A DNA stretch of 45,736 nt from a virus (IMGVR_UViG_3300020419_000026:1-45736), one strand, 5' to 3'. Shown: positions 1,787-45,736, counted from the stretch's first letter. The notes: generated by a model not told the origin, from the letters alone. Made by a program: numbers and translations.

Positions 1787-1996
1787 TTATTTATCTAATT
1801 TACTTAAAATGAGTTTCATCATTGATTTTAACTCATCAACATCATCCTTCAACTTATCCATTTCGTTGACTTCTTGCATTTTTTTCTGCTTCAACTTTAG
1901 ATAACTATCATACTCAGAGTCAGAACAATTTAAGATTGCACCAGATTGTTCGTCTCTATAAAGAGACCCACTATCTTTTACCTTAATCTTATCCAT
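1787..1996 (-). CDS. Small coiled-coil protein of the structural operon
   Basis: This 69-residue, lysine-rich protein has a heptad-like C-terminal half (KLKQKKMQEVNEMDKLKDD, then DELKSMMKLILSKLDK) that should form a coiled coil from about residue 32 to the end. The N-terminal part (DSGSLYRDEQSGAILN) looks like a short bound peptide or cap. It is coupled to the 2505-residue giant by TAATG at 1996. Proteins of this size and shape recur between virion genes of T4-like marine phages. It may be a chaperone or small structural bundle, but the function is not known. Confidence 0.7.
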   Translation of the reverse strand: MDKIKVKDSGSLYRDEQSGAILNCSDSEYDSYLKLKQKKMQEVNEMDKLKDDVDELKSMMKLILSKLDK

Positions 1997-36081: not shown

Positions 36082-36087
36082 ATTATA
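36082..36087 (-). promoter_or_regulatory. Promoter -10 box (TATAAT), no clear -35
   Basis: TATAATAGTAATATACAAACAAA on the minus strand (the leader repeated in this region) precedes ATG 36057. A GC-rich hairpin CCTCACCATCGGTGGGG fills the -35 region. Confidence 0.55.
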
Positions 36088-36118
36088 CACACTAAAACCC
36101 CACCGATGGTGAGGCCTT

Positions 36119-36140
36119 GTGCCAGTTGTCAAAGTGTCAC
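36119..36140. repeat. Boundary palindrome, copy 1
   Basis: GTGCCAGTTG..AAAGTGTCAC, imperfect inverted repeat. It starts at the TAG stop of the 36140 gene. Confidence 0.7.
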
Positions 36141-36352
36141 TATACTGCTTTACTTGCCCTGTTACCTGTGTTAATGTGTGCCATGTGTGTTGGCATTCCA
36201 GCGTGCATAAAACTGCCTTTAGGAGCAGCGTTATTCCAAGCACGCTTAGCAGCGGTAGCACCAGCACTGCTTCTCTTTAATACCGTGTACTTAATGCGGC
36301 GGCCATCGGCCATTGTTAATACTGTCTGCTGCTTAATGTTGTTTGCGGCCAT
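36140..36352 (-). CDS. Small basic hypothetical protein
   Basis: A 70-residue protein MAANNIKQQTVLTMADGRRI ... NRASKAV, rich in Ala, Lys, Arg and Met. A strand pair (KQQTVLTMADGRRIKYTVL) is followed by a basic, probably disordered tail, so nucleic-acid binding is possible but unproven. The chosen ATG 36352 follows the AACAAACATAAACAC leader. The earlier in-frame TTG lies inside the promoter. The ribosome site is absent or weak. Confidence 0.65.
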   Translation of the reverse strand: MAANNIKQQTVLTMADGRRIKYTVLKRSSAGATAAKRAWNNAAPKGSFMHAGMPTHMAHINTGNRASKAV

Positions 36353-36376
36353 GTGTTTATGTTTGTTGTTGGTCCT

Positions 36377-36382
36377 ATTATA
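36377..36382 (-). promoter_or_regulatory. Promoter -10 box abutting a terminator
   Basis: TATAAT on the minus strand follows two bases after the T tract of the terminator at 36384-36410. The terminator arm occupies the usual -35 position, so no -35 box is visible. Confidence 0.45.
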
Positions 36383-36383
36383 C

Positions 36384-36410
36384 AATAAAAAAGGGACTTA
36401 TATAAGCCCC
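36384..36410 (-). terminator. Intrinsic terminator
   Basis: The minus strand reads GGGGCTTAT/ATAAGTCCC, a near-perfect stem with one G-T pair, followed by TTTTTTATT. It ends the 36434-36769 gene transcript. Confidence 0.75.
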
Positions 36411-36413
36411 CTT

Positions 36414-36434
36414 GGTCCAGTTGTTTAACTGTCC
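36414..36434. repeat. Boundary palindrome, copy 2 (variant)
   Basis: GGTCCAGTTG..TAACTGTCC is a variant of the palindrome in which GTGCC has become GGTCC. It starts at the stop of the 36434 gene. Confidence 0.55.
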
Positions 36435-36769
36435 TATGATATTGCCAACTCGAATCCGTCAACAAAGTCAACAGCGTTGTTATGGAAGTCCGCCACGAAC
36501 CAGTCCCAGTTCTTTTGAAATACTTTGTAACCTGTAGCGAACTCATAGCAAAGTGCGTTTAAGCGTGACTTAGTTGTATTACTCTGCCAACCGCCATCAA
36601 ATAATAGCATTGTATCATTTAATACTGTAGCAATGTGGTTTCCGTGTAACTTGATTATTACCTCTCTCTGTCCTGCTGAGTTAATACCGTGAGTAACAGA
36701 AGTATTACCAGAGCGGAAGTCCTTGCCGTTTCTGATAGCGGTGTTCATGTTCTTTTCAATTACTCTCAT
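36434..36769 (-). CDS. Phage hypothetical protein of the 'HGN..A...DGGWQS' type
   Basis: A 111-residue protein MRVIEKNMNTAIRNGKDFRS, with REVIIKLHGNHIATV, LLFDGGWQSNTTKSRLNALC and FQKNWDWFVADFH. I associate this pattern with an unnamed family found in many marine phages, but cannot give a function. Start ATG 36769 sits after the repeated ACAAACAAACATTC leader. The longer frame would begin within the promoter. It is followed by a proper terminator, so it is a single-gene unit. Confidence 0.8.
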   Translation of the reverse strand: MRVIEKNMNTAIRNGKDFRSGNTSVTHGINSAGQREVIIKLHGNHIATVLNDTMLLFDGGWQSNTTKSRLNALCYEFATGYKVFQKNWDWFVADFHNNAVDFVDGFELAIS

Positions 36770-36800
36770 GTGTTTTAAGAATGTTTGTTTGTATGTACTT

Positions 36801-36828
36801 ATTATAATGGGTGGCAATACAAATACAA
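36801..36828 (-). promoter_or_regulatory. Boundary-cassette promoter
   Basis: TTGTAT (36823-36828), 16 bp, TATAAT (36801-36806), minus strand, upstream of ATG 36769. Confidence 0.7.
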
Positions 36829-36836
36829 TACCCATT

Positions 36837-36858
36837 GTGCCAGTTTAATAAGTGGCAC
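36837..36858. repeat. Boundary palindrome, copy 3
   Basis: GTGCCAGTTT..TAAGTGGCAC, 22 bp. It lies at the edge of the gap that holds the plus-strand promoters. Confidence 0.75.
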
Positions 36859-36877
36859 ACACCGTGCTATTAAGTGG

Positions 36878-36906
36878 TTGACAAGTGCGCTCCGATGCCC
36901 TATAAT
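36878..36906 (+). promoter_or_regulatory. Consensus sigma70 promoter P1 on the plus strand
   Basis: TTGACA (36878-36883), a 17-bp spacer and TATAAT (36901-36906), both boxes perfect. It points right, opposite to every gene in the window, and no plausible open frame follows. Confidence 0.8.
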
Positions 36907-37006
36907 TGGACCATAAGAGATTCGGGGTAGGATCTATAAACTTTTCGACACTGATGCTGCTTCGCAATAATTGTATCAGAATGTTACATAATCCCGCTAA
37001 CATACA

Positions 37007-37023
37007 TTGACAGGTCCTGTCAA
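37007..37023. repeat. 17-bp perfect palindrome
   Basis: TTGACAGG T CCTGTCAA, perfect dyad with a single central base. Its outer arms are TTGACA boxes facing both ways, but neither has a -10 box at the right distance. It lies about 40 bp before P2 and looks like a protein-binding site. Confidence 0.65.
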
Positions 37024-37031
37024 GTCCTGTT

Positions 37032-37053
37032 GTGCCAGTGCATAAGGTGGCAC
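37032..37053. repeat. Boundary palindrome, copy 4 (no minus-strand promoter)
   Basis: GTGCCAGTGC..AAGGTGGCAC, 22 bp. This is the only copy followed by a plus-strand rather than a minus-strand promoter. Confidence 0.65.
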
Positions 37054-37061
37054 AGTACTGG

Positions 37062-37090
37062 TTGACTTTCTGAGGTTTTTGTGTTATAAT
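37062..37090 (+). promoter_or_regulatory. Consensus-like sigma70 promoter P2 on the plus strand
   Basis: TTGACT (37062-37067), 17 bp, TATAAT (37085-37090). It reads into the AT-rich stretch and the TTTTCCACA boxes. Confidence 0.75.
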
Positions 37091-37249
37091 GCTCGCCTAG
37101 ATGTCTATAAGATCTCCCATTAATTCGCTTCATTTAAGCATAAAACATTCAAAGAGATAATAAACACTTATATGTTTAATTAACCTTTTTTAAATGTTAC
37201 TTAAATATGCAATAGTTTTCCACAAGTTGTTAATTAATCTGTGGAAAAC
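37091..37249. other. Candidate replication origin: AT-rich stretch plus inverted DnaA-type boxes
   Basis: Downstream of P2 lies about 120 bp of markedly AT-rich DNA without a gene (for example TTTAATTAACC, TTAAATGTTACTTAAATATG). It ends in two TTTTCCACA boxes facing each other. A promoter reading into an unwinding element is the layout of T4 origins, and TTTTCCACA is the DnaA-box consensus of cyanobacteria. The right box lies in the last codons of the 37234 gene. The combination is seen in the sequence. Origin function is inferred. Confidence 0.4.
37215..37249. repeat. Inverted pair of TTTTCCACA boxes
   Basis: GTTTTCCACA (37215-37224) and TGTGGAAAAC (37240-37249) form a perfect 10-bp inverted repeat around 15 bases that include TTAATTAA. 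It could instead act as a transcript-end hairpin for the 37234 gene, though no U tract follows. Confidence 0.75.
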
Positions 37250-37449
37250 CTGTTCTTATTGCTTCTCTGAAGCACCTCTATCTTATTCTGAATTTGCTTT
37301 AGTTTAGCGTAGATACTTCCGCTTGCTTCATTAACATTTAGATCATCATATTCTTTAAGGTTAGTTAACACTAATAACTTAATTAATGATAACTCCGAAG
37401 CACTAAACTCCGAGAGATATAACGACTCTAAGTTATACTTAAGGGTCAT
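37234..37449 (-). CDS. Small hypothetical protein
   Basis: A 71-residue protein MTLKYNLESLYLSEFSASEL ... EVLQRSNKNRFSTD, helical, with a C-terminal coiled-coil-like stretch (AKLKQIQNKIEVLQRS). Its ATG overlaps the upstream 44-residue gene by 11 bp. The final codons RFSTD-stop lie in the TTTTCCACA box. The 'SASELSLIKLL' segment follows the region's LTxxE helix pattern. Function is unknown. Confidence 0.65.
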   Translation of the reverse strand: MTLKYNLESLYLSEFSASELSLIKLLVLTNLKEYDDLNVNEASGSIYAKLKQIQNKIEVLQRSNKNRFSTD

Positions 37450-37573
37450 ATGTTCCTTCAGTTTCTATATCTGAGTATTCATAATAATCAAAGTCATTTG
37501 CTTCACTCTCATCACTTAATCGCCTTATGAACGCTTCACTAGACTCACATACAGTTTGCTTTACTTTGTCCAT
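37439..37573 (-). CDS. Small acidic peptide
   Basis: A 44-residue protein MDKVKQTVCESSEAFIRRLS ... DYYEYSDIETEGTYDP, strongly acidic in its second half. It overlaps the upstream stop by one base (TGATG), has an AAGGAGG ribosome site, and overlaps the downstream start by 11 bp, so it is firmly embedded in an operon despite its size. Not recognised. Confidence 0.6.
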   Translation of the reverse strand: MDKVKQTVCESSEAFIRRLSDESEANDFDYYEYSDIETEGTYDP

Positions 37574-37788
37574 CAGATTGCCTCCTTAGTGCTACACTTA
37601 GTGTTGGCAATCTCTCCCAGATTCTCTACATATAACGACTTAACTCTCTCTCCATTCTTATCATTTAACTCTAGCAGTTTGTTCCAATTCCAGTTACTTG
37701 GCGTATTACAGTTAGTGTTATCAACTGTAAAATCTATTGTTACACGATAACGTGCTACTTTTGTGCTTGATTGTAATTGAGAGTCCAT
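37573..37788 (-). CDS. Small hypothetical protein with a PSNWNW segment
   Basis: A 71-residue protein MDSQLQSSTKVARYRVTIDF ... TPSNWNWNKLLEL ... STKEAI. A beta hairpin (ARYRVTIDFTVDN) precedes a Trp-rich segment. I choose ATG 37788 because an earlier in-frame start would lie at the transcription start of the promoter at 37815-37843. It is the first gene of a three-gene operon. Function is unknown. Confidence 0.65.
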   Translation of the reverse strand: MDSQLQSSTKVARYRVTIDFTVDNTNCNTPSNWNWNKLLELNDKNGERVKSLYVENLGEIANTKCSTKEAI

Positions 37789-37814
37789 AAGATTGAGGCG
37801 GTGGATTACATTTA

Positions 37815-37843
37815 ATTCTAACAGATATTGCACTAAATGTCAA
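37815..37843 (-). promoter_or_regulatory. Sigma70-type promoter without the boundary palindrome
   Basis: TTGACA (37838-37843), 17 bp, TAGAAT (37815-37820), minus strand. Unlike most promoters of this region it has a consensus -35 box and lacks the palindrome and the CAAACAAA leader. Confidence 0.7.
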
Positions 37844-38036
37844 CAACTACACGATATTTCTTTCTTATGTTGTTATTTAGTGGGGAAACTTACCACGCTT
37901 ATGTGAAGCGAATAGCAGTATTATACTTCTAAAAAAAAATCTTTTCGCCTCAAAGTGACTAGGATAATGTAAGACTAATAAAGACGAATTACTCTCCTTA
38001 TATGTTAGATAGACGATTAATCACTCATTAAAACTG
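37844..38036. other. Gap between operons
   Basis: About 190 bp without a gene. It holds a nine-A run (T run on the minus strand) preceded on that strand by a weak CTTT/AAAG stem, a possible terminator for the 38037 operon, and a CTAAATA late-promoter match at 37874-37880 of doubtful meaning. I see nothing else in it. Confidence 0.4.
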
Positions 38037-38300
38037 TCAACTAAAGTTCAAAGATTTAATCTCATAGTCATAATTAGATTCTGATACTTTACCACTATTT
38101 GAAGCAATAGTATCGTCTAATACATTGACTAGACTCTCATCTATAGCAATGAGTTCTGTAACATACTCATCTTCAAAAGCGCCTCCGTTATCCTCAAATA
38201 AAGCACGCTTTTCTTCAATAGCAAGTTCTCTCAAAATTTGCACTTGATAAAATGTTAGGTTAACATTTACTGTTACATCACTAATTTTTGAAGTGTTCAT
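38037..38300 (-). CDS. Small acidic hypothetical protein, LTxxQ type
   Basis: An 87-residue protein MNTSKISDVTVNVNLTFYQV ... DYEIKSLNFS. A strand (VTVNVNLT) leads into a helix (YQVQILRELAIEEKRALFED) and an acidic second half. It is the last gene of an operon with the 45- and 72-residue genes and starts two bases after the 45-residue gene stop. Function is unknown. Confidence 0.7.
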   Translation of the reverse strand: MNTSKISDVTVNVNLTFYQVQILRELAIEEKRALFEDNGGAFEDEYVTELIAIDESLVNVLDDTIASNSGKVSESNYDYEIKSLNFS

Positions 38301-38302
38301 GA

Positions 38303-38440
38303 TTAATTCCTCTTTTTGTTGTTTTTGTGATCTCTTACCATTTTATTAAACTTGCGTGACTCACTCGGACTCATACCGCAAAAATAGTTTAATAGATTGC
38401 CTTCATATCTGTCAGCAAGGTCAAATAACTCTTTATCCAT
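38303..38440 (-). CDS. Small hypothetical protein
   Basis: A 45-residue protein MDKELFDLADRYEGNLLNYF followed by a basic end (MSPSESRKFNKMVRDHKNNK). TAATG coupling to the upstream gene and tight packing to the downstream gene support it. The 'GMSPSESRKFNKMV' segment resembles a short helix-turn-helix-like pair, but this is weak. Confidence 0.6.
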   Translation of the reverse strand: MDKELFDLADRYEGNLLNYFCGMSPSESRKFNKMVRDHKNNKKRN

Positions 38441-38658
38441 TATAGACACTCACTAGGCGGTAAACCTATAGATGCTATAGCATTGTCAAGTGCATCAAAG
38501 TCAAGTTCTGGATCATCAAAATCAACTCCAGCAGCGTGGTCAACTCCCCATTCTGCAACTTCAAAAACGAAATCTTCAAAGTTCTTGCATACCCATGCAA
38601 CATTTTCAAAGTTCTCAACTTCTTTTATTCTTGTTATTAGTCTGTCTGTTTTAGTCAT
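38440..38658 (-). CDS. Small very acidic protein
   Basis: A 72-residue protein MTKTDRLITRIKEVENFENV ... IASIGLPPSECL with a run VDFDDPELDFDALDNA. The charge suggests a DNA-mimic-like or protein-binding surface, but no family is recognised. It is the first gene of the operon and has a GGAG ribosome site. Confidence 0.65.
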   Translation of the reverse strand: MTKTDRLITRIKEVENFENVAWVCKNFEDFVFEVAEWGVDHAAGVDFDDPELDFDALDNAIASIGLPPSECL

Positions 38659-38686
38659 TTAAAACTCCTTTGTTTGTTATACTACT

Positions 38687-38692
38687 ATTATA
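38687..38692 (-). promoter_or_regulatory. Boundary-cassette promoter, CACTGCCC subtype
   Basis: TATAAT preceded by CACTGCCC, minus strand. No good -35 box is present. Leader TATAACAAACAAAGGAG leads to ATG 38658. Confidence 0.6.
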
Positions 38693-38711
38693 GGGCAGTG
38701 AGATCAAAAAT

Positions 38712-39053
38712 CTACACTGCTTGTGCCACTTTTATTACTGGCACATCATCTATTGACACTCCGCACCCTAGTATGTTAGAAAAAATAACGTCATCTAAAA
38801 CTTTTTTCAATCTAGTTGCCTTCTTACTGTTAACAACATAGGTTAAAAATTCTTCCATTAAGAAATTAGTTTCATTACTGGTAGCATCATCTAAAAAGTC
38901 ATTTTGATAAACAACTTCTGCAAATTTCTCTCCATTAACTGTTAGAATAGTTTGCCTTGAGTTAATTGCCTTTATCTCAATATCATTCATTTTAAGATAT
39001 TTTCTTTGATTAAGAGCATCAACTATTTTCTTTTCTGTTTTGTACATAAACAT
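38712..39053 (-). CDS. Small hypothetical protein ending in palindrome-encoded residues
   Basis: A 113-residue protein MFMYKTEKKIVDALNQRKYL ... VPVIKVAQAV. The core has a strand pair (IEIKAINSRQTILTVNGEKF) and helices. The last residues (VPVIKVAQAV) are encoded by the boundary palindrome. It is coupled to the upstream 83-residue gene by TAATG. Function is unknown. Confidence 0.7.
   Translation of the reverse strand: MFMYKTEKKIVDALNQRKYLKMNDIEIKAINSRQTILTVNGEKFAEVVYQNDFLDDATSNETNFLMEEFLTYVVNSKKATRLKKVLDDVIFSNILGCGVSIDDVPVIKVAQAV
38723..38744. repeat. Boundary palindrome, copy 5 (within coding sequence)
   Basis: GTGCCACTTT..TACTGGCAC. It encodes residues VPVIKVA at the C-terminus of the 38712 gene. 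Confidence 0.75.
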
Positions 39054-39304
39054 TATACCGCCTCCAGATCACTTAAATATGCTTCAACTGTCATTATTTC
39101 ATAGTCAGTTATGTAAGTTTTGACTACAGCATAGTTACTGCTTCTATCCAACATAACCACACTGCCTTCTAGATCATCATGTATTTTGGACTTGACGTTA
39201 GTTCCAAGTTTGATGACTTTTTTCTTTTCTAACTCTTCACACTTGTTCATTAAGTCTCTTAACTTTTGAACATCACTATTAAATTGTTCAGTAGAATAAG
39301 GCAT
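39053..39304 (-). CDS. Small hypothetical protein, helix plus SH3-like strands
   Basis: An 83-residue protein. Residues 1-30 form a charged helix (FNSDVQKLRDLMNKCEELEK), then 'KVIKLGTNVKSKIHDDLEG' and 'VVMLDRSSNYAVVKTYITD' form a small barrel-like run of strands. It starts on an A-rich leader (AACAAACAACT) with no ribosome site. Function is unknown. Confidence 0.7.
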   Translation of the reverse strand: MPYSTEQFNSDVQKLRDLMNKCEELEKKKVIKLGTNVKSKIHDDLEGSVVMLDRSSNYAVVKTYITDYEIMTVEAYLSDLEAV

Positions 39305-39327
39305 AGTTGTTTGTTTGTTATACTACT

Positions 39328-39355
39328 ATTATAGTAGCGTGGATATGAAATTCAA
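39328..39355 (-). promoter_or_regulatory. Boundary-cassette promoter, CACGCTAC subtype
   Basis: TTGAAT (39350-39355), 16 bp, TATAAT (39328-39333). The -10 box sits in CTACTATAATAGTAG, a perfect odd palindrome. Confidence 0.75.
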
Positions 39356-39363
39356 GTGGCAGT

Positions 39364-39384
39364 GTGCCACTTTATAAAGTGTCC
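39364..39384. repeat. Boundary palindrome, copy 6
   Basis: GTGCCACTTTATAAAGTGTC, nearly perfect. It ends at the stop of the 39384 gene. Confidence 0.8.
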
Positions 39385-39584
39385 TAGTGTGACTTGTGTT
39401 TCATTAACTCGCCTGTTAGAGTATCTCTTACAAGTGAATATGCAACTTGATAATCTCTAGATACATCACAACAGTACTGAACAGCGCCATCTAGGTCATC
39501 AGTATAAACGTGAGTAATACCTAGATCATGAGATTCTGTTTCTATCTCATATCTGAACTGGTCAGTAGGATTAACGTAAGTCAT
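39384..39584 (-). CDS. Small acidic hypothetical protein
   Basis: A 66-residue protein MTYVNPTDQFRYEIETESHD ... LTGELMKHKSH. A strand, helix, strand layout with DDLDGAVQYCCDV is reminiscent of small phage proteins in which a helix follows a D-L-D-x-A motif. Single-gene unit with its own promoter. The ribosome site is weak. Function is unknown. Confidence 0.65.
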   Translation of the reverse strand: MTYVNPTDQFRYEIETESHDLGITHVYTDDLDGAVQYCCDVSRDYQVAYSLVRDTLTGELMKHKSH

Positions 39585-39609
39585 AGTGCCTTTGAATGTC
39601 TATATTACT

Positions 39610-39615
39610 ATTATA
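39610..39615 (-). promoter_or_regulatory. Boundary-cassette promoter, weak -35
   Basis: TATAATAGTAATATAGACA on the minus strand, leading to ATG 39584. A GGACTA..TAGTCC hairpin, which overlaps the upstream stop codon, occupies the -35 region. Confidence 0.55.
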
Positions 39616-39625
39616 GTGGATAGGA

Positions 39626-39907
39626 CTAGAATTTAGTCCTTGCTTGTGCCACTTTGTCAACTGCCATACGACTCATAAACTGAGCAGGTCTTTTTGTATT
39701 GATAGTTACAGCAAAGTTATGTTCCAATAGTTCATCAATTTCCTCCGCCATATCATATACATTCATAGGTGCTTTTTCGATAGTCTTACCTTTATATGTT
39801 AAAACTCTTAGTCTAGCATTCTTACTGACTTCAGTACCAGTACTGGTAAAATACTTAACCTCGAAATAGTCAACTCTTAAATTTTCTGATTCAGATAAAA
39901 ATTGCAT
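39626..39907 (-). CDS. Small hypothetical protein ending in palindrome-encoded residues
   Basis: A 93-residue protein MQFLSESENLRVDYFEVKYF ... MAVDKVAQARTKF. Strands (VDYFEVKYFTSTGTE, then ARLRVLTYKGKTI) precede two helices. The C-terminal DKVAQA is read from the boundary palindrome, just as KVAQA is in the unrelated 38712 product. It starts with a GGGAATT ribosome region after the A-rich leader. Function is unknown. Confidence 0.7.
   Translation of the reverse strand: MQFLSESENLRVDYFEVKYFTSTGTEVSKNARLRVLTYKGKTIEKAPMNVYDMAEEIDELLEHNFAVTINTKRPAQFMSRMAVDKVAQARTKF
39646..39666. repeat. Boundary palindrome, copy 7 (within coding sequence)
   Basis: GTGCCACTTTGTCAACTGCC, imperfect. It encodes VDKVA near the end of the 39626 gene. 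Confidence 0.65.
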
Positions 39908-39933
39908 AATTCCCTATGTTTGTTTATACTACC

Positions 39934-39961
39934 ATTATAGTAGCGTGAGATACGATTACCA
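39934..39961 (-). promoter_or_regulatory. Boundary-cassette promoter, CACGCTAC subtype
   Basis: Weak -35 TGGTAA (39956-39961), 16 bp, TATAAT (39934-39939), then the TATAAACAAACA leader to ATG 39907. Confidence 0.6.
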
Positions 39962-39970
39962 CTAAAAATA

Positions 39971-39990
39971 GACACTTTATAAAGTGGCAC
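39971..39990. repeat. Boundary palindrome, copy 8
   Basis: GACACTTTATAAAGTGGCAC, a perfect inner dyad ACTTTATAAAGT. It lies 18 bp downstream of the stop of the 40008 gene. Confidence 0.8.
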
Positions 39991-40007
39991 AGTTGTTGTT
40001 GCATCAT

Positions 40008-40217
40008 TTACCACTCCATGTTAGGTTGCTTTGCCTTGTTCTTTAGTATTTTTGTTTCTTCTTCATATCCAATAGCATTTACTCTATCTTTAAGTGACTT
40101 AATTTCTTTACACTCATAATATTCGCTAGTGCGGTAGTAATCTACCCTACTACCATAATAATCATCAAGAGCGCAAATAATGATACTTAGTTCATCTAAT
40201 GTTACATCTAATTTCAT
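40008..40217 (-). CDS. Small hypothetical protein, LTxxE type
   Basis: A 69-residue protein MKLDVTLDELSIIICALDDY ... KNKAKQPNMEW. The opening 'VTLDELSIIICALDDYY' is the clearest example of the shared N-terminal pattern of this region. Two helices follow. It is the last of a five-gene operon and is coupled by TAATG. Function is unknown. Confidence 0.7.
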   Translation of the reverse strand: MKLDVTLDELSIIICALDDYYGSRVDYYRTSEYYECKEIKSLKDRVNAIGYEEETKILKNKAKQPNMEW

Positions 40218-40381
40218 TAATCTGCCTCCTCTACTTCATAAATTTCATAGTCATCATCATCAAGAAATTGCCAATCTGTGTTACCATTAAGAGCAAGTAA
40301 TTCTGCTTCTTGACTATCTTCCGCTTCAATAAAAGCAACATAATTTGTTACTCTTGTAGCGGTAACTTTATATTCATTCAT
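40217..40381 (-). CDS. DpnD/PcfM-like small acidic protein
   Basis: A 54-residue protein MNEYKVTATRVTNYVAFIEA, then EDSQEAELLALNG and YEIYEVEEAD. The strand-turn-strand opening, an E-A-x-D-x-x-E-A helix start and a final acidic strand match the layout of DpnD/PcfM-like proteins of phages and plasmids. ATG 40381 is preferred over an upstream in-frame start because it makes an 8-bp overlap (ATGAATGA) with the preceding gene. Its close parallel is the 44756 product. Role unknown. Confidence 0.65.
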   Translation of the reverse strand: MNEYKVTATRVTNYVAFIEAEDSQEAELLALNGNTDWQFLDDDDYEIYEVEEAD

Positions 40382-40646
40382 GTATCCAATTCCCCTCTGA
40401 ATCGTAGTCGCCACCTGTAATGGACTCTAATCCATAAGGGTCAACATCATTAACAACTGATTGAATACCAGTATAGTCACGCCCCTGTAAACGATAGACT
40501 TCTTTTTGTTGTCTTAAATCCTGATCTAGTCGGTAGGATAGTTCACAATTAAGTGCCATGTATTTACTTTTTTCATCACTATTTTCTGCATAGTGGAATT
40601 GTAAACACTCTAACAAGTATTCAAGTTCTCTAATTGCAAAGTTCAT
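40374..40646 (-). CDS. Small hypothetical protein
   Basis: A 90-residue protein MNFAIRELEYLLECLQFHYA ... DSEGNWIHE, mainly helical. ATG 40646 has a GGAGG ribosome site 8 bp upstream, so I prefer it to an in-frame upstream start. It overlaps the upstream 42-residue gene by 17 bp and the downstream one by 8 bp. Function is unknown. Confidence 0.7.
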   Translation of the reverse strand: MNFAIRELEYLLECLQFHYAENSDEKSKYMALNCELSYRLDQDLRQQKEVYRLQGRDYTGIQSVVNDVDPYGLESITGGDYDSEGNWIHE

Positions 40647-40758
40647 AGTCACTGCCTCCATAAAATAATTGATAATACAAATCGTTTTTCAAATCGAAAA
40701 ACTCAAAATCGGATTCCTCATAAGACTTGAGCACCGCTTCATATACTTCTTGATTCAT
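40630..40758 (-). CDS. Small acidic peptide
   Basis: A 42-residue protein MNQEVYEAVLKSYEESDFEF ... YELCN. Its ATG forms an ATGA overlap with the upstream stop, and a GAGGAGG ribosome site precedes it inside the upstream gene. It is Tyr/Asp/Glu/Phe-rich. Not recognised. Confidence 0.6.
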   Translation of the reverse strand: MNQEVYEAVLKSYEESDFEFFDLKNDLYYQLFYGGSDYELCN

Positions 40759-40931
40759 GATAATGCCTCCTCGAGCAAGTCACTCATACAAGTGAGATCA
40801 ATAACATCACTTATTCCAAGTGAATTGTCATTATCAATAGCGAAGTCTAAAGCATTCTTTAGATCGGATACTCTACCACTATCAAAAGTAAGAGTGATTG
40901 AGTTAGTGTTTGGATTTCTTTTGAAATTCAT
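40755..40931 (-). CDS. Small hypothetical protein
   Basis: A 58-residue protein MNFKRNPNTNSITLTFDSGR ... LLEEALS. A strand pair is followed by two helices (VSDLKNALDFAIDND, then VIDLTCMSDLLEEAL). It is the first gene of the operon, starts on the CAAACAAAGTTAC leader without a ribosome site, and overlaps the next gene by ATGA. Function is unknown. Confidence 0.65.
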   Translation of the reverse strand: MNFKRNPNTNSITLTFDSGRVSDLKNALDFAIDNDNSLGISDVIDLTCMSDLLEEALS

Positions 40932-40954
40932 GTAACTTTGTTTGTTATACTACT

Positions 40955-40982
40955 ATTATAGTAGCATGAAATCCAATAACAA
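40955..40982 (-). promoter_or_regulatory. Boundary-cassette promoter, C(A)TGCTAC subtype
   Basis: TTGTTA (40977-40982), 16 bp, TATAAT (40955-40960) inside CTACTATAATAGTAG. Confidence 0.7.
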
Positions 40983-40990
40983 CCACTATT

Positions 40991-41012
40991 GTGCCACTTT
41001 GATAACTGGCAC
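40991..41012. repeat. Boundary palindrome, copy 9
   Basis: GTGCCACTTT..TAACTGGCAC, 22 bp. It begins three bases after the 41016 gene stop on the minus strand. Confidence 0.75.
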
Positions 41013-41015
41013 ACA

Positions 41016-41174
41016 CTAGGTTGACTTTTGTAAGTAAATCGCCATATACTCTTCTCTAGTGAGAGTTTCTTCTTGCTCTGTATCCATATTCAATACAACA
41101 TCATAGGGATAAAATCCATAATATTTGTAATGATCTCTTACATAGTCTTTAATCTGTTGTTCTCTAGTCATCAT
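41016..41174 (-). CDS. Small hypothetical protein
   Basis: A 52-residue protein MMTREQQIKDYVRDHYKYYG ... YMAIYLQKST. Starts at either of two adjacent ATGs; the first gives an ATGA overlap with the upstream stop. It has a Tyr-rich helix, then TREEYMAIYL. It is the last gene of a four-gene operon. Function is unknown. Confidence 0.6.
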   Translation of the reverse strand: MMTREQQIKDYVRDHYKYYGFYPYDVVLNMDTEQEETLTREEYMAIYLQKST

Positions 41175-41350
41175 AAACCGCCATCTAAATTTCTCATTTT
41201 TGTAATAATATCATGAGATATGTAATTTCTGATATTACTTTCATAAGGGTCAGATTTTAACTCTACTCTGCCTTTCATGGCAATATAAGTTGGTTCAAAT
41301 ACTTCATAGAGTTTATTAAACTCTTGATCGGTTAGTATTAAAGTTTTCAT
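41171..41350 (-). CDS. Small hypothetical protein, LTxxE type
   Basis: A 59-residue protein MKTLILTDQEFNKLYEVFEP ... KMRNLDGGL. The start 'LILTDQEFNKLYEVF' follows the shared N-terminal pattern. ATGA overlaps are seen at both ends. Function is unknown. Confidence 0.65.
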   Translation of the reverse strand: MKTLILTDQEFNKLYEVFEPTYIAMKGRVELKSDPYESNIRNYISHDIITKMRNLDGGL

Positions 41351-41475
41351 TGCGCTAAATCCTCGAATAGTTCTTCAGTTAGTCTAATTGCTTCCAATTC
41401 TGATAATTCTGGATTATCTTCTAATACTTGCTCATATAATGATTCAAGTATGATCTCATTCTGTAAACAACTCAT
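41347..41475 (-). CDS. Small acidic peptide
   Basis: A 42-residue protein MSCLQNEIILESLYEQVLED ... LTEELFEDLAQ, a single acidic helix pair. It is coupled upstream by TAATG and downstream by ATGA, with a GGGGAATTA ribosome region. Not recognised. Confidence 0.6.
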   Translation of the reverse strand: MSCLQNEIILESLYEQVLEDNPELSELEAIRLTEELFEDLAQ

Positions 41476-41666
41476 TAGTAATTCCCCTCTATAATATATT
41501 TTTGAGTCAAGACTTCCATTTCTTTTTGTAGGTCGCCTGCAAATGGTTTTACATCACTATGAATTGTTGCCCAAGCACGCTCCATAGCATTGTTAATCTG
41601 ATAACCTTTTAATACTACACCTAATTGGTGCATATTGTATGTTTGATTTGGAATAACTTTAGTCAT
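41475..41666 (-). CDS. Small hypothetical protein
   Basis: A 63-residue protein MTKVIPNQTYNMHQLGVVLK ... LTQKYIIEGNY. The sequence 'YNMHQLGVVLKGYQINNAME' suggests a compact helical domain. It is the first gene of its operon and starts on the pure AACAAACAAAC leader with no ribosome site. Function is unknown. Confidence 0.65.
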   Translation of the reverse strand: MTKVIPNQTYNMHQLGVVLKGYQINNAMERAWATIHSDVKPFAGDLQKEMEVLTQKYIIEGNY

Positions 41667-41689
41667 GTTTGTTTGTTTCTTATACTACT

Positions 41690-41717
41690 ATTATAGGGCA
41701 GTGAAACTGAATTTCAA
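41690..41717 (-). promoter_or_regulatory. Boundary-cassette promoter, CACTGCCC subtype
   Basis: TTGAAA (41712-41717), 16 bp, TATAAT (41690-41695). Confidence 0.75.
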
Positions 41718-41725
41718 CTACCCAT

Positions 41726-41747
41726 GTGCCAGTTTATTAACTGTCAC
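41726..41747. repeat. Boundary palindrome, copy 10 (spans a stop codon)
   Basis: GTGCCAGTTT..TAACTGTCAC, 22 bp. It contains the TAA stop of the 41737 gene. Confidence 0.75.
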
Positions 41748-41898
41748 AAGCACTATTGATAAACACGCCTCTGTTTGTTAATATGTCCTCTATCTTGAAT
41801 ATGATAGGGACGATTTTAGTAGCGTCCATTTCTTCATAGTCAGTTATGTAATCATCAAGGCAACTATGAATAGTTTTTAATTCTTCATTACTGAACAT
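41737..41898 (-). CDS. Small hypothetical protein, LTxxE type
   Basis: A 53-residue protein MFSNEELKTIHSCLDDYITD ... FINSACDS. The opening 'FSNEELKTIHSCLDDY' fits the shared N-terminal pattern. It overlaps the upstream 84-residue gene by 11 bp, and its stop lies in the boundary palindrome. Function is unknown. Confidence 0.65.
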   Translation of the reverse strand: MFSNEELKTIHSCLDDYITDYEEMDATKIVPIIFKIEDILTNRGVFINSACDS

Positions 41899-42142
41899 TC
41901 TCTATTACCTCATCAATAGTATCTGTAAAGTATTCATCAAAATACTCTTCGATCTCACACAATGCCTCATTAAATGTTAATGTGTCTATCCATTTTTGCA
42001 TATCATCAATAACATATCTAACTAAATCTTTAGTTGACATATTATCAACAATTCGATCAACATAGTACTCTTTAAGAGCAGCGAATTGCTTGTCAGTTAG
42101 TGCCTGTGCTTCTAACATTTTTTTTCCGTTTTGTTTTTGCAT
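41888..42142 (-). CDS. Small acidic hypothetical protein, LTxxQ type
   Basis: An 84-residue protein. The segment 'QALTDKQFAALKEYYVDRIV' has the shared pattern. Helices follow, and the end is very acidic (CEIEEYFDEYFTDTIDEVIE). ATG 42142 follows the upstream stop by one base. An in-frame ATG eight codons later (42118) is also possible. Function is unknown. Confidence 0.65.
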   Translation of the reverse strand: MQKQNGKKMLEAQALTDKQFAALKEYYVDRIVDNMSTKDLVRYVIDDMQKWIDTLTFNEALCEIEEYFDEYFTDTIDEVIENVQ

Positions 42143-42143
42143 T

Positions 42144-42332
42144 TTACTCTATATCTAAGGTTAATGGTTCTGGGAACTCTTTTAATTTAAGTGTAGCAAA
42201 CTCTTTTATAAAGGTATAAACCTTGAGTCCACTAAGTTTTCTCTCATCACATAAGAATTGAACTGAGTCCTCTAGTACTTCCAATACTTCAAAGGCATCA
42301 TCACAATGCTTTTTCATTTGTTCATTATTCAT
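42144..42332 (-). CDS. Small acidic hypothetical protein
   Basis: A 62-residue protein MNNEQMKKHCDDAFEVLEVL ... PEPLTLDIE, with two cysteines and a helical layout. It is coupled by TAATG to the upstream gene. Not recognised. Confidence 0.65.
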   Translation of the reverse strand: MNNEQMKKHCDDAFEVLEVLEDSVQFLCDERKLSGLKVYTFIKEFATLKLKEFPEPLTLDIE

Positions 42333-42550
42333 TAACCTAACCTCTTGTATAAATGTGTCATCTTCTCATCAATAGAGTTAATTCTATCCATAACTGGGAT
42401 TCCACCGATTAAATCCTCTTCCGCCGCTTCATCATTAGCGTAGGACTCATAATCCTCAAGAGAAGCACTAATTGTCTCCCATTCTGCATCAGTAAAGAAT
42501 GCCTTGATAGTTGCAAGTTGTTCATAACTGAAATCTCTTGTTAGAGTCAT
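42332..42550 (-). CDS. Small acidic hypothetical protein, SxEQ type
   Basis: A 72-residue protein MTLTRDFSYEQLATIKAFFT ... IDEKMTHLYKRLG. The pattern 'FSYEQLATIKAFF' again matches the shared opening. It has an AGAGG ribosome site after the A-rich leader and is the first gene of a four-gene operon. Function is unknown. Confidence 0.65.
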   Translation of the reverse strand: MTLTRDFSYEQLATIKAFFTDAEWETISASLEDYESYANDEAAEEDLIGGIPVMDRINSIDEKMTHLYKRLG

Positions 42551-42582
42551 TTTAAAAACCTCTGTTTGTTTGTTATACTACT

Positions 42583-42610
42583 ATTATAGTAGCGTGAAAT
42601 CGTAATTCAA
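42583..42610 (-). promoter_or_regulatory. Boundary-cassette promoter, CACGCTAC subtype
   Basis: TTGAAT (42605-42610), 16 bp, TATAAT (42583-42588) inside CTACTATAATAGTAG. Confidence 0.75.
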
Positions 42611-42614
42611 CTGG

Positions 42615-42869
42615 TTATGTGCCACTTTGTGTACTGGCACACTTCCACTTGATTTTCTTCTCATCATTGAGTATATCAAAGCATATCTCGCAAAGACAAT
42701 CTGCATGAGGCACACTTTCTCGCCAGTCATAATCTTCTTCTATTGGACTATCCCAATAGTAATATAATTCTGGTTGATAATCTTGAATACAATGTTGCCC
42801 GTCTTTTGGATAATCCATAGACTCTCTATGTGATTCATCAAAATTTCCACACCTATCGCAATATGACAT
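42615..42869 (-). CDS. Small Cys-rich, probably zinc-binding protein
   Basis: An 84-residue protein beginning MSYCDRCGNFDESHRE. It has CxxC at residues 4-7, a further GQHC, and a HADCLCEICF cluster near residues 58-67, enough ligands for one or two zinc sites. ATG 42869 is chosen because it overlaps the upstream stop as TAATG. An earlier in-frame GTG is unlikely. The last residues CASTQSGT are encoded by the boundary palindrome. A nucleic-acid or protein-binding role is possible but not proven. Confidence 0.7.
   Translation of the reverse strand: MSYCDRCGNFDESHRESMDYPKDGQHCIQDYQPELYYYWDSPIEEDYDWRESVPHADCLCEICFDILNDEKKIKWKCASTQSGT
42619..42640. repeat. Boundary palindrome, copy 11 (within coding sequence)
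   Basis: GTGCCACTTT..GTACTGGCAC, 22 bp. It encodes the C-terminus of the 42615 gene. Confidence 0.75.
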
Positions 42870-43171
42870 TACTTTGCCTCCTGATCTAGTGCCCATAGAC
42901 TACCACCATCAAAATCTGTGGAATATCCGTAGTTTCTGACTAAGAAGTCTCTTACTCTCTCTCTATCAAGTGAGTCGCCATCGCCCCATGTAAATCTCTC
43001 ATTGTTGAGAGTATTGATAGCGTGTAGATAGTCATAGGTAGCACCAATAATATCTGTTTTGGTAGCACCCATAGGATAGAGTGCATCAGGAGCACCATAG
43101 AATGAATAGACATATTCAGTAAACTCTGATAACATATCATTGAGTTCAGTAGATGGTTGACCTGAGTTCAT
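42869..43171 (-). CDS. Hypothetical protein
   Basis: A 100-residue protein MNSGQPSTELNDMLSEFTEY ... GGSLWALDQEAK. Helices (TELNDMLSEFTEYVYSFYG, DIIGATYDYLHAINTL) and a DRERVRDFLVRNYGYS segment suggest a helical domain. The start follows the CAAACAAAAGAATT leader without a ribosome site. It is coupled to the zinc-binding gene by TAATG. Function is unknown. Confidence 0.7.
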   Translation of the reverse strand: MNSGQPSTELNDMLSEFTEYVYSFYGAPDALYPMGATKTDIIGATYDYLHAINTLNNERFTWGDGDSLDRERVRDFLVRNYGYSTDFDGGSLWALDQEAK

Positions 43172-43195
43172 AATTCTTTTGTTTGTTATACTATC

Positions 43196-43223
43196 ATTAT
43201 AGGGCAGTGAAACTGTATTTCAA
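43196..43223 (-). promoter_or_regulatory. Boundary-cassette promoter, CACTGCCC subtype
   Basis: TTGAAA (43218-43223), 16 bp, TATAAT (43196-43201). Confidence 0.75.
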
Positions 43224-43231
43224 CCACCCAT

Positions 43232-43253
43232 GTGCCACTTAGTCAACTGTGCC
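43232..43253. repeat. Boundary palindrome, copy 12 (spans a stop codon)
   Basis: GTGCCACTTAGTCAACTGTG, degenerate copy. It includes the TAA stop and last codons (TVD) of the 43239 gene. Confidence 0.6.
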
Positions 43254-43439
43254 ATAAGGTGTGACTTGATACTGGTCTATACCATCTTGCATATCCGCTA
43301 AGTATCCTAACTTTTTTCTTATGGTTCTAAAATTAACTTTAAAGTCATCACTAAATTTATCAGTTAGTCGGTTAGGTGTGGTCAATACCAACTGAATTAA
43401 AGCATCACACTCTGCTGCTGTAAGATTTGGGTCATTCAT
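43239..43439 (-). CDS. Small hypothetical protein, LTxxE type
   Basis: A 66-residue protein MNDPNLTAAECDALIQLVLT ... YQVTPYGTVD. The opening 'NLTAAECDALIQLVL' fits the shared pattern. The middle is basic (KFSDDFKVNFRTIRKKLGYL). It is coupled by TAATG to the upstream gene. Function is unknown. Confidence 0.7.
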   Translation of the reverse strand: MNDPNLTAAECDALIQLVLTTPNRLTDKFSDDFKVNFRTIRKKLGYLADMQDGIDQYQVTPYGTVD

Positions 43440-43612
43440 TATTCTTTTGGGTATAAGTTTGTAATTATGTCAGCAATTTGATTTAACTGATCTTCATTCA
43501 TTAATTCGATCATAGCATCAACTATATCATAGATAGCGGAATTGTTCCCCTCCTCTAGGATTTCTGCTATTTCTGAGAATAGTGTTGTTCTTAAGTCGTT
43601 TCGATAGATCAT
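43439..43612 (-). CDS. Small acidic hypothetical protein
   Basis: A 57-residue protein MIYRNDLRTTLFSEIAEILE ... DIITNLYPKE, almost wholly helical. It overlaps the upstream 158-residue gene by ATGA and the downstream gene by TAATG. Not recognised. Confidence 0.65.
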   Translation of the reverse strand: MIYRNDLRTTLFSEIAEILEEGNNSAIYDIVDAMIELMNEDQLNQIADIITNLYPKE

Positions 43613-44085
43613 GCCATTAACTCCTGTGGGTAGTCAGCAGGGATAGTTTCCTTGATAGGTCTAAATGTATCGTTGAAATCTTTAGTCTCTTCATTCCAGA
43701 ATGATAGACCATAGCAAACTAGAGTTCCATCAAGTTCTTTAACATAAGCATACTCTCCACAACACTTGTTAGTATCTTCAAAGAAGTGAGAGATAGTTTT
43801 ATGAATTCTAGGAGCATTGTCCTCTAGTGACTCGCCTCTCTCTGTGTAGTATAGAGGTTTGTATGGTAATCCCTTCAACTGCTCTTCATCTTCGATTTCC
43901 CAACCTGATTGAGTATAGCAACAACTCATGTTACCACCGTCAATAAGTTCTGCAATATCTTCTCTTGTAGGATACTGTTGATTAAGAGTAACGCCTAACC
44001 ACTGTGGATAACCGTCCCAGTGATGATATACTGATAAGATTGAACCATCAGCGAGTCTTAAACCGATTCTTGAATTAGTTGACAT
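43609..44085 (-). CDS. Hypothetical protein of the 'SRIGLRLADGS..VYHHWDGYP' type
   Basis: A 158-residue protein, the largest complete product in the early-type region. It opens MSTNSRIGLRLADGSILSVY then HHWDGYPQWLGVTL, a pattern I associate with a widespread unnamed family in marine phages and some bacteria. It has paired cysteines (MSCCYTQSG, NKCCGEYAYV) that could bind a metal. It starts on the A-rich leader with no ribosome site. Biochemical function is unknown. Confidence 0.8.
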   Translation of the reverse strand: MSTNSRIGLRLADGSILSVYHHWDGYPQWLGVTLNQQYPTREDIAELIDGGNMSCCYTQSGWEIEDEEQLKGLPYKPLYYTERGESLEDNAPRIHKTISHFFEDTNKCCGEYAYVKELDGTLVCYGLSFWNEETKDFNDTFRPIKETIPADYPQELMA

Positions 44086-44108
44086 GATTGTTTGTTTGTT
44101 ATGTACTT

Positions 44109-44137
44109 ATTATAATATGGTGATAGAGGTGATACAA
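44109..44137 (-). promoter_or_regulatory. Boundary-cassette promoter, CACCATAT subtype
   Basis: TTGTAT (44132-44137), 17 bp, TATAAT (44109-44114), preceded by CAGGTGGTTG as in the 45182 promoter. Confidence 0.7.
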
Positions 44138-44145
44138 CCACCTGT

Positions 44146-44167
44146 GTGCCAGTTTATAAAGTGGCAG
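44146..44167. repeat. Boundary palindrome, copy 13 (spans a stop codon)
   Basis: GTGCCAGTTTATAAAGTGGC, almost perfect. It contains the stop and last codons (PATL) of the 44154 gene. Confidence 0.8.
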
Positions 44168-44411
44168 GGTCAGAAGGCATAGACGTAGGATTTAATGATA
44201 GTTTCATTTTATCGAATACAGCAGGTGCTATTTGTGTACTATCAAAAGAGCAACTTCCATCTTCATTTTTGTTTCCTAGTTTATCGCATAATGCCTCACT
44301 TATCATTGAATACAAAAATGTATTAGTTTTAGGATTATTGACAATATAATCAATAACCTCTAGTGTAAGGGCATCAGCAAGTTTATCAACTGTTTCTTTT
44401 GATAAAGTCAT
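44154..44411 (-). CDS. Small hypothetical protein
   Basis: An 85-residue protein MTLSKETVDKLADALTLEVI ... LNPTSMPSDPATL. The N-terminal two-thirds are helical (LSKETVDKLADALTLEVIDY). The tail is Pro/Ser-rich and is partly read from the palindrome. It overlaps the upstream gene by ATGA. Function is unknown. Confidence 0.65.
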   Translation of the reverse strand: MTLSKETVDKLADALTLEVIDYIVNNPKTNTFLYSMISEALCDKLGNKNEDGSCSFDSTQIAPAVFDKMKLSLNPTSMPSDPATL

Positions 44412-44596
44412 TTAATTTTCTCCATAATAGGGAACAAATAAAGATCATATTCTTCTAACATATCATCATCTATATTTGAAAAATAATCCTCTAAAATATC
44501 GTCTAATAGATTCTCTCTATAGACAGTAGTTATATGATCGGATAGAATGAAATCTTTTATATCATTCTGTAGTAATTGTTTTTCTTCAGTTTTCAT
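44408..44596 (-). CDS. Small acidic hypothetical protein
   Basis: A 62-residue protein MKTEEKQLLQNDIKDFILSD ... YDLYLFPIMEKIK with an Asp/Glu-rich middle (DDILEDYFSNIDDDMLEEYD). ATGA overlaps at both ends. Not recognised. Confidence 0.65.
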   Translation of the reverse strand: MKTEEKQLLQNDIKDFILSDHITTVYRENLLDDILEDYFSNIDDDMLEEYDLYLFPIMEKIK

Positions 44597-44754
44597 TTTT
44601 CTATCTCCAAAGAATCAATAAAGGCAACACAATGTTCAGTAAATTTCTTTACGTCAATAGGTGCTACTTGGTCATCATCTTCGCCAATATAATAGAATTG
44701 GTTATTGATGTTAGAGATCAAAGTAAGAAGTGCTGTTTCGTTGTTAGTGTACAT
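44593..44754 (-). CDS. Small acidic hypothetical protein
   Basis: A 53-residue protein MYTNNETALLTLISNINNQF ... FIDSLEIEK. 'FYYIGEDDDQVAPIDVKKFT' sits between two helices. An AAGGAG ribosome site lies in the end of the upstream gene, and ATGA overlap joins the next. Not recognised. Confidence 0.6.
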   Translation of the reverse strand: MYTNNETALLTLISNINNQFYYIGEDDDQVAPIDVKKFTEHCVAFIDSLEIEK

Positions 44755-44755
44755 T

Positions 44756-44971
44756 TTATGCTCCTTGATAATAGTTAACTGGATTGACTTCTTCGATTTC
44801 TACAAATTCATAATCTTGAAAGTTGTCAAAATCTGTTTCATAGTCATCATACTCGCCTAGGTCATAAAGACGCTTTGCTTCTTCTGCTGTTTCTGCCCAC
44901 ACATAAGCAGTTCCCCAACCGATAAACTTTTCGGTTATCTCGAATTGTTTTTTGTCCTTTGGAATTTCCAT
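44756..44971 (-). CDS. DpnD/PcfM-like small acidic protein
   Basis: A 71-residue protein MEIPKDKKQFEITEKFIGWG, then AYVWAETAEEAKRLYDLG and YEFVEIEEVNPV. The strand, 'A-E-T-x-E-E-A' helix and final acidic strand match DpnD/PcfM-like proteins and parallel the 40217 product. ATG 44971 is preferred to a GTG three codons earlier because of a GGAGAG ribosome site at the right distance. Role unknown. Confidence 0.65.
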   Translation of the reverse strand: MEIPKDKKQFEITEKFIGWGTAYVWAETAEEAKRLYDLGEYDDYETDFDNFQDYEFVEIEEVNPVNYYQGA

Positions 44972-44973
44972 TT

Positions 44974-45159
44974 TTACCACTCTCCGTTAGACTCAGCAAA
45001 AACATCTTCATTCCAATGTTCGTATGGTTTTATGATACCAACGTGACGCATGATACCATCATAGATTTCCATGCCTGACCTTGACATTCTGCCTGCTGTG
45101 TAATCCCAACCTAACTCGGTCAAGTTGTCAACTATAAAGTTTAGTGATACTTTTTTCAT
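44974..45159 (-). CDS. Small hypothetical protein
   Basis: A 61-residue protein MKKVSLNFIVDNLTELGWDY ... NEDVFAESNGEW. A strand, helix and Trp/Tyr-rich middle (ELGWDYTAGRMSRSGMEIYD) give a compact look. It is the first gene of a five-gene operon and starts on a TTAAACAAACACT leader without a ribosome site. Function is unknown. Confidence 0.65.
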   Translation of the reverse strand: MKKVSLNFIVDNLTELGWDYTAGRMSRSGMEIYDGIMRHVGIIKPYEHWNEDVFAESNGEW

Positions 45160-45181
45160 AGTGTTTGTTTAATATACTTCT

Positions 45182-45209
45182 ATTATAATATGGTCATGTA
45201 GTAGTACAA
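45182..45209 (-). promoter_or_regulatory. Boundary-cassette promoter, CACCATAT-like subtype
   Basis: TTGTAC (45204-45209), 16 bp, TATAAT (45182-45187). Confidence 0.7.
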
Positions 45210-45217
45210 CCACCTGT

Positions 45218-45237
45218 GTGCCACTATCTGAACTGTC
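45218..45237. repeat. Boundary palindrome, copy 14 (degenerate)
   Basis: GTGCCACTATCTGAACTGTC, degenerate. It overlaps the TAG stop of the 45224 gene. Confidence 0.5.
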
Positions 45238-45736
45238 TATTGTTGAAGTTTGCGTAACTGAACTGTTGACGTTTGATAAGTTTGAATGTACCATACTTGT
45301 TAGTCATGACATAACCCTCATGTTCATAAGGCACACTATCAAATAGACATTGAACATTCTCTGTAGTAGTAATGCCTTCCATGAGTAACTCTTTTATCTC
45401 AATTATCATATTGTATAAGTGAAATAAGTTTCTAGAGTATCCAGTATCACTTGATAACTGGTCAGCATCTAGTGATTGACCAGAGCGTATATAACTATTG
45501 ATGTTTATTTTTAACTGTGGAATGTCCTTGCTCTCTGGAAATCGTACAAATGGTATGATAGTCTTAGCAAGTGTGATAAGTAAACTTAATCTAAAATGTC
45601 TATTAGATATTGATGCACTTGTATCAATAAAGTGAACACCATAGTTTTTAGACTCCTTGTAATGAAACTTAGCATCTAACTCTTGTATGGTAGCACCAAT
45701 ATACTGTGTATGAGTGGCAACAATAATGTCATCAAT
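45224..45736 (-). CDS. Hypothetical protein, N-terminus beyond the window
   Basis: The frame is open from the right edge to TAG at 45224, giving 170 residues of a longer protein (IDDIIVATHTQYIGATIQEL ... FSYANFNNRQFR). An internal ATG at 45409 is in the same frame, so the true gene is much longer than the part after that ATG. Segments such as HFIDTSASISNRHFRLSLLI and SYIRSGQSLDADQLSSDTGY suggest a folded alpha/beta protein. I do not recognise it. It is unusually large for this region of tiny genes. Confidence 0.7.
   Translation of the reverse strand: MDDIIVATHTQYIGATIQELDAKFHYKESKNYGVHFIDTSASISNRHFRLSLLITLAKTIIPFVRFPESKDIPQLKININSYIRSGQSLDADQLSSDTGYSRNLFHLYNMIIEIKELLMEGITTTENVQCLFDSVPYEHEGYVMTNKYGTFKLIKRQQFSYANFNNRQFR

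Follow-up and report, generated by a model that had tools for sequence, protein, structure and literature searches.

The inverted repeat that recurs between the small genes of this virus fragment is probably a DNA operator, and together with a TATAAT hexamer placed 29-30 bp downstream it would define a class of promoters from which T4-like cyanophages express their early gene groups. The window, as the whole stretch of 45,736 nucleotides that was analyzed is called here, comes from a T4-like cyanophage, of whose genome it is a fragment. Among named phages the closest relative is Synechococcus phage S-SSM7 (Kyanoviridae, Lipsvirus), with ~80% identity over 59% of the stretch of the window from 30 to 45.7 kb. 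Baseplate, fibre and other structural genes occupy positions 755-33833, and from ~34 to 45.7 kb there follows a run of small minus-strand genes, in which the palindromes are located; the genes downstream of them are called early-type from their location only, in this small-gene region. The element bears on how abundant marine cyanobacterial viruses switch on their first genes. The control of early and middle genes in the cyanomyoviruses has been considered unclear, because the T4 polymerase-modifying and middle-mode factors are absent (PMC2984593), and these phages are without motA and asiA (PMC2984593; PMC5780444).

Sequence and Distribution of the Palindrome

Fourteen copies of the 24-bp element TGTGMCASTT-N4-AASTGKCACA lie within 36.1-45.2 kb of the window, at operon boundaries, as had been proposed in a sequence-only reading of this DNA, which gave the length of the unit as 20-22 bp where it is in fact 24 bp. 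Scanning with the consensus TGTGMCASTTN4AASTGKCACA recovered 11 sites with two mismatches or fewer and 12 with three or fewer, all of them in 36-45.7 kb, against no site and a mean of 0.03 sites, respectively, in 200 dinucleotide shuffles of the window. The exact palindrome GTGCCACTT..AAGTGGCAC of that reading has 0 matches, because positions 5 (A/C) and 8 (C/G) of each arm are two-fold degenerate, varying freely and independently between the half-sites, and the element is thus an imperfect one.

The element is present throughout the family, as all eight of the T4-like cyanophages tested carry it, with 4-17 sites each at three mismatches or fewer, mostly in the small-ORF or early region (S-SSM7 14, Syn9 4, P-TIM40 6, S-PM2 9, P-SSM2 13, P-HM2 8, S-SRM01 17, S-TIM4 10); at the same threshold there are 0 sites in T4, S-TIM5, P-SSP7 and Ma-LMM01, and the reversed pattern, used as a control, gives 0-1 sites. 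In IMG/VR, at least 119 stretches hold an exact match to the consensus. The position relative to the genes is also regular, in that 16 of 18 sites of S-SSM7 lie 65-92 bp 5′ of an annotated CDS start, the remaining two being at 47 and 187 bp, and the syntenic boundaries of the relatives, on which the sequence-only reading had staked its idea of a boundary cassette, do carry the palindrome.

Promoter Geometry

In the direction of transcription a stop codon comes first, and the palindrome, the spacer, TATAAT, the A-rich leader and the ATG follow in that order. Of the thirteen minus-strand copies of the window, nine have 29 bp between palindrome and TATAAT, three have 30 bp and one has 28 bp. Those with 29 bp include the three exact consensus copies, at 36836-36859 (-10 at 36801-36806), 40990-41013 (-10 at 40955-40960) and 41725-41748 (-10 at 41690-41695), as well as 38722-38745 (-10 at 38687-38692), 39363-39386 (-10 at 39328-39333), 39645-39668 (-10 at 39610-39615), 43231-43254 (-10 at 43196-43201), 45217-45240 (-10 at 45182-45187) and 42618-42641 (-10 at 42583-42588), this last one being inside the 3′ end of the ORF 42615-42896. 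The distance is 30 bp at 36118-36141 (-10 at 36082-36087), at 44145-44168 (-10 at 44109-44114) and at 36413-36436 (-10 at 36377-36382), a weak copy with four mismatches, and 28 bp at 39968-39991 (-10 at 39934-39939). The fourteenth copy, on the plus strand at 37031-37054, has its -10 box at 37085-37090, with a spacing of 30, and what follows it is not an early gene but a putative ncRNA.

The spacing also holds where sites were picked without regard to the -10 box: among 93 palindromes with three mismatches or fewer, from nine phage sequences, 57 have a -10-like hexamer beginning at +29 and 20 have one at +30 (77/93 together), no other distance accounting for more than 5, and among the IMG/VR matches listed an exact TATAAT is found at +29 in 36 loci, at +30 in 12 and at no other distance in more than 4. 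A further set of 110 sites, to which the statistics given below refer, was filtered for a spacing of 28-31 and for the consensus, so its own spacing tally is not independent, whereas the two former tallies are unfiltered. A second peak of spacing near 40 bp, which would correspond to one more helical turn, does not count as evidence, because most of it comes from a single divergent promoter that is conserved and has a TTGACA of its own (spacing 39-41).

As to the promoter that had been described after nearly every palindrome, the TATAAT at a near-constant distance holds, but the -35 box TTGAAW or TTGTAN does so in only ~8 of the 13 minus-strand copies. The -35 is indeed weakly conserved, since TTGACA is matched at three or fewer of its six positions in 74/110 sites; a good -35 (5 or 6 of 6 positions) is present in 15/110, more than shuffled spacers give, and this minority suggests that activation would not be strictly required everywhere. 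The near-identical A-rich leader was found as described, with 11 occurrences of TATAACAAACAAA (two mismatches or fewer) vs 5.2 expected, and with most of the early-region copies at boundaries. In the example at 40937-40949 on the minus strand it falls in the mRNA start region, where no Shine-Dalgarno was seen, and the same or nearly the same leader is at 38669, 39310, 41672, 42565, 43178, 44091 and 45164. From a conserved ATA at that point, transcription would start ~6-7 nt after the -10 box, which would place the center of the palindrome near -53, outside the downstream mRNA.

Spacer Hairpins and Proposed Nested Terminators

The spacer between the palindrome and the -10 box tends to fold, and its hairpin sits where a -35 box would be. 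Folding energies of -8 kcal/mol or lower are reached by 35% of spacers, whereas for random 29-mers the figure is 3% and for the 29 bp upstream it is 5%. The mean dinucleotide z is -1.45 vs -0.28, and in 12/110 spacers a hairpin with its U tract lies wholly between the operator and the -10 box. Within the window, intrinsic terminators with U tracts are found 3′ of the palindromes at 36118 (spacer 36088-36117, the canonical terminator CCTCACC-ATC-GGTGGGGTTTT) and at 36413 (spacer 36383-36412, the U-tract terminator AGGGGGCTTATATAAGTCCCTTTTTTATTG), and spacer hairpins accompany the copies at 38722, 39645, 41725 and 43231. Four related spacers lacking a U tract, those of window 41725 and 43231 and of S-SSM7 44747 and 45118, keep their stem, as read by eye, through two-sided A-T to T-A changes, which is the opposite of what the palindrome does. 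In 45 spacers taken independently from IMG/VR the signal is weaker (20% at -8 kcal/mol or lower, mean z -0.58), and so the spacer hairpin is common but not universal.

Proposed Mechanism

The fixed spacing, the dyad of half-sites and the dispensable -35 box argue for an activator that contacts the host RNA polymerase. The two 10-bp half-sites TGTGMCASTT, inverted, 4 bp apart and centered ~53 bp upstream of the predicted start, would be bound by a putative dimeric regulator, and the bound protein would most likely activate the host RNA polymerase, making a good -35 box unnecessary. With the -35 dispensable, the spacer would be open to the intrinsic terminator of the upstream operon or to some other hairpin, and ~60 bp of boundary could thus accommodate the stop codon and terminator of one operon along with the operator, the -10 box and the A-rich leader of the next. 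It may be suggested, more tentatively, that the activator is encoded by the phage or delivered in the virion, is perhaps of a new family and replaces the -35, the 29-bp gap holding the terminator of the prior operon, so that terminator and promoter have their DNA in common; the bound activator could in addition be a roadblock to read-through. The nested terminator would in that case be an example of genome compaction. In practice, an operator with an exact geometry could be used as bait in the hunt for the activator, and the simple rule of palindrome, 29-30 bp and TATAAT could serve to predict early promoters in cyanophage metagenomes.

Alternative Explanations

Three roles had been offered for the palindrome in the sequence-only reading, namely an operator, an RNA processing or end-protecting hairpin, and a recombination site. 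That it could act in RNA, as a terminator, processing site or 3′-end protector of the upstream mRNA, would agree with its position, following or overlapping stop codons, and with the foldability of the consensus (mean -5.1 kcal/mol), but this is very improbable. In the 110 sites the arms form 747 Watson-Crick pairs vs 761 +/- 9 with shuffled arms, so there is no covariation, and position 8 even tends toward mispairing, being paired in 35% of sites vs 44% expected. Because the arms pair no better than shuffled ones, without compensatory pairing, the palindrome was rejected as an RNA hairpin or intrinsic terminator, and half-sites that vary independently are, as expected, what recognition by a protein would give. 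Furthermore, no U tract was seen directly after the palindrome stem in the aligned site listing, the strong terminators are separate hairpins in the spacer, 3′ of the palindrome, and a role in RNA would leave the fixed spacing to the next -10 box unexplained. The promoter-proximal half carries 14.0 bits of information and the distal half 10.4 bits, and this better conserved proximal half, along with the fixed -10 spacing and the lack of arm covariation, supports the first of the three roles, that of operator.

If a protein does bind the palindrome, an inverted repeat at fixed spacing would also fit a repressor, and the palindrome abuts the -35 region, from where a phage or host protein might shut the early promoters later in infection or in defence. 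This is nevertheless unlikely, as no part of the palindrome reaches downstream of about -40, and repression from so far upstream is less common, and as many of the promoters have a poor -35, which fits the need for an activator better than the need for a repressor. A site of recombination or of module exchange, for its part, could be read into three differences from S-SSM7: the gene 42615-42896 matches S-SSM7 48014-48271, in a different module, with the neighbouring modules colinear, and has thus moved between boundaries; the gene 41016-41174 is displaced; and the boundary at 40990 is extra in the window, with no S-SSM7 counterpart. The same three differences lend something to the idea of interchangeable modules, which is weakened by gene groups that are mostly colinear with S-SSM7. 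For the palindrome as the recombination site, however, no positive evidence emerged from that comparison, in which there is no sign of site-specific recombination; no recombinase is linked to the palindrome, the fixed 29-bp spacing to the -10 and the asymmetric half-sites would be unexpected in such a site, and ordinary homologous recombination between the repeated cassettes would account for the shuffling, all of which makes this role highly implausible. It is also scarcely to be believed that the palindrome is an inert by-product of cassette duplication, with a spacing fixed only through recent copying: some cassettes of the window are 60-88% alike over 40-95 nt, but the spacing holds across diverged phages that share little spacer sequence, and in them the palindrome and the -10 box stay conserved.

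The Putative Regulator and Known Systems

A host regulator, such as NtcA, Pho or another, is not evident, the operator not being enriched in Cyanobiaceae: only 13/300 of their genomes have any site with two mismatches or fewer, and 61 genomes, at three mismatches or fewer, hold ~20 sites vs ~15 for the reversed-pattern control. A scan of all genomes returned 58 loci. Several of these are phage contigs that form part of bacterial assemblies, and the others are scattered (Nostocales, Acidobacteria and elsewhere) beside unrelated genes. Two of the loci are on NZ_RMVE01000006.1, a cyanophage-like contig of 188,235 bp in the 'Nonlabens xiamenensis' assembly, of which two 8-kb stretches read 98-99% identical to P-TIM40, and three loci are on contigs of the Flavobacteriales MAG TMED113 that carry the cyanophage promoter element. 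The Pyrinomonadaceae MAG SSF56 has six TGTGACASTT-N4-AASTGTCACA sites, all outside large ORFs, a very similar inverted repeat in an unrelated bacterium.

Among phage proteins, phrog_385 (S-SSM7_321), which bears the annotation 'transcriptional regulator', occurs in each of the seven further T4-like cyanophages that were tested but is missing from S-TIM5. It was rejected as the regulator, having no Pfam match and no convincing PDB relative, and resembling by eye an FmdB-like protein minus the cysteines; in the copy at L007:30934-31203 there is no detectable DNA-binding domain, and the annotation of the cyanophage phrog_385 may be wrong. The other core small phage proteins that were examined have no recognized transcription-factor domain.

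Doron et al. (2016) reportedly described a novel regulatory element of early genes in Syn9 and P-TIM40, conserved among T4-like cyanophages. Both of these phages carry the palindrome, and it is therefore probably the same element, and hence one already known; phage group and early genes coincide. The motif of the palindrome was not found quoted in the papers searched. The present analysis contributes the exact geometry, a case against a role in RNA, nested terminators and a host search with a negative outcome; of these, the nesting of the terminator and the evidence for a DNA rather than an RNA site may not have been known previously.

The middle promoters of T4 (MotA box, AsiA) likewise combine an activator site with a -10 box, the -35 being replaced, but the MotA box is short, non-palindromic and at about -30, in contrast to a 24-bp inverted repeat near -53. 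The CRP-type, NtcA (GTAN8TAC) and Pho box systems likewise have a recognition site upstream of a sigma-70 -10 box, at a distance that is fixed, and the CRP and NtcA sites are inverted repeats, like the palindrome, although its sequence matches none of the three consensuses and there is no comparable Cyanobiaceae regulon. Activator sites are classically centered at -61.5 (class I) or -41.5 (class II), and the palindrome, centered at -53, differs from both positions. With intrinsic (Rho-independent) terminators several of the spacers share a hairpin and U tract; here the terminator is the spacer hairpin inside the next promoter and not the palindrome.

Other Features of the Window

No non-coding gap in the early region is longer than the one at 36901-37210 (plus strand), which contains two plus-strand promoters. 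The one, TTGACA-17-TATAAT with its -10 at 36901-36906, is divergent from the palindrome at 36836 and 41 bp off it; the other, TTGACT-17-TATAAT with its -10 at 37085, is 30 bp from the operator at 37031. Each is followed by a conserved stretch in which no ORF is evident, and the stretch after the second promoter closes with a weak hairpin and TTTTTT. The gap could thus encode two putative small RNAs, conserved in S-SSM7 (50.7-51.0 kb) and at three other loci; an Rfam search of the region at E<=1 gave no match, for these putative RNAs included. At the other end of the fragment, the baseplate region contains three very large ORFs, at 1996-9513, 11150-20143 and 21204-30206 (2505, 2997 and 3000 aa), with S-SSM7 counterparts of matching sizes in the same order, two of which are annotated as gp7.
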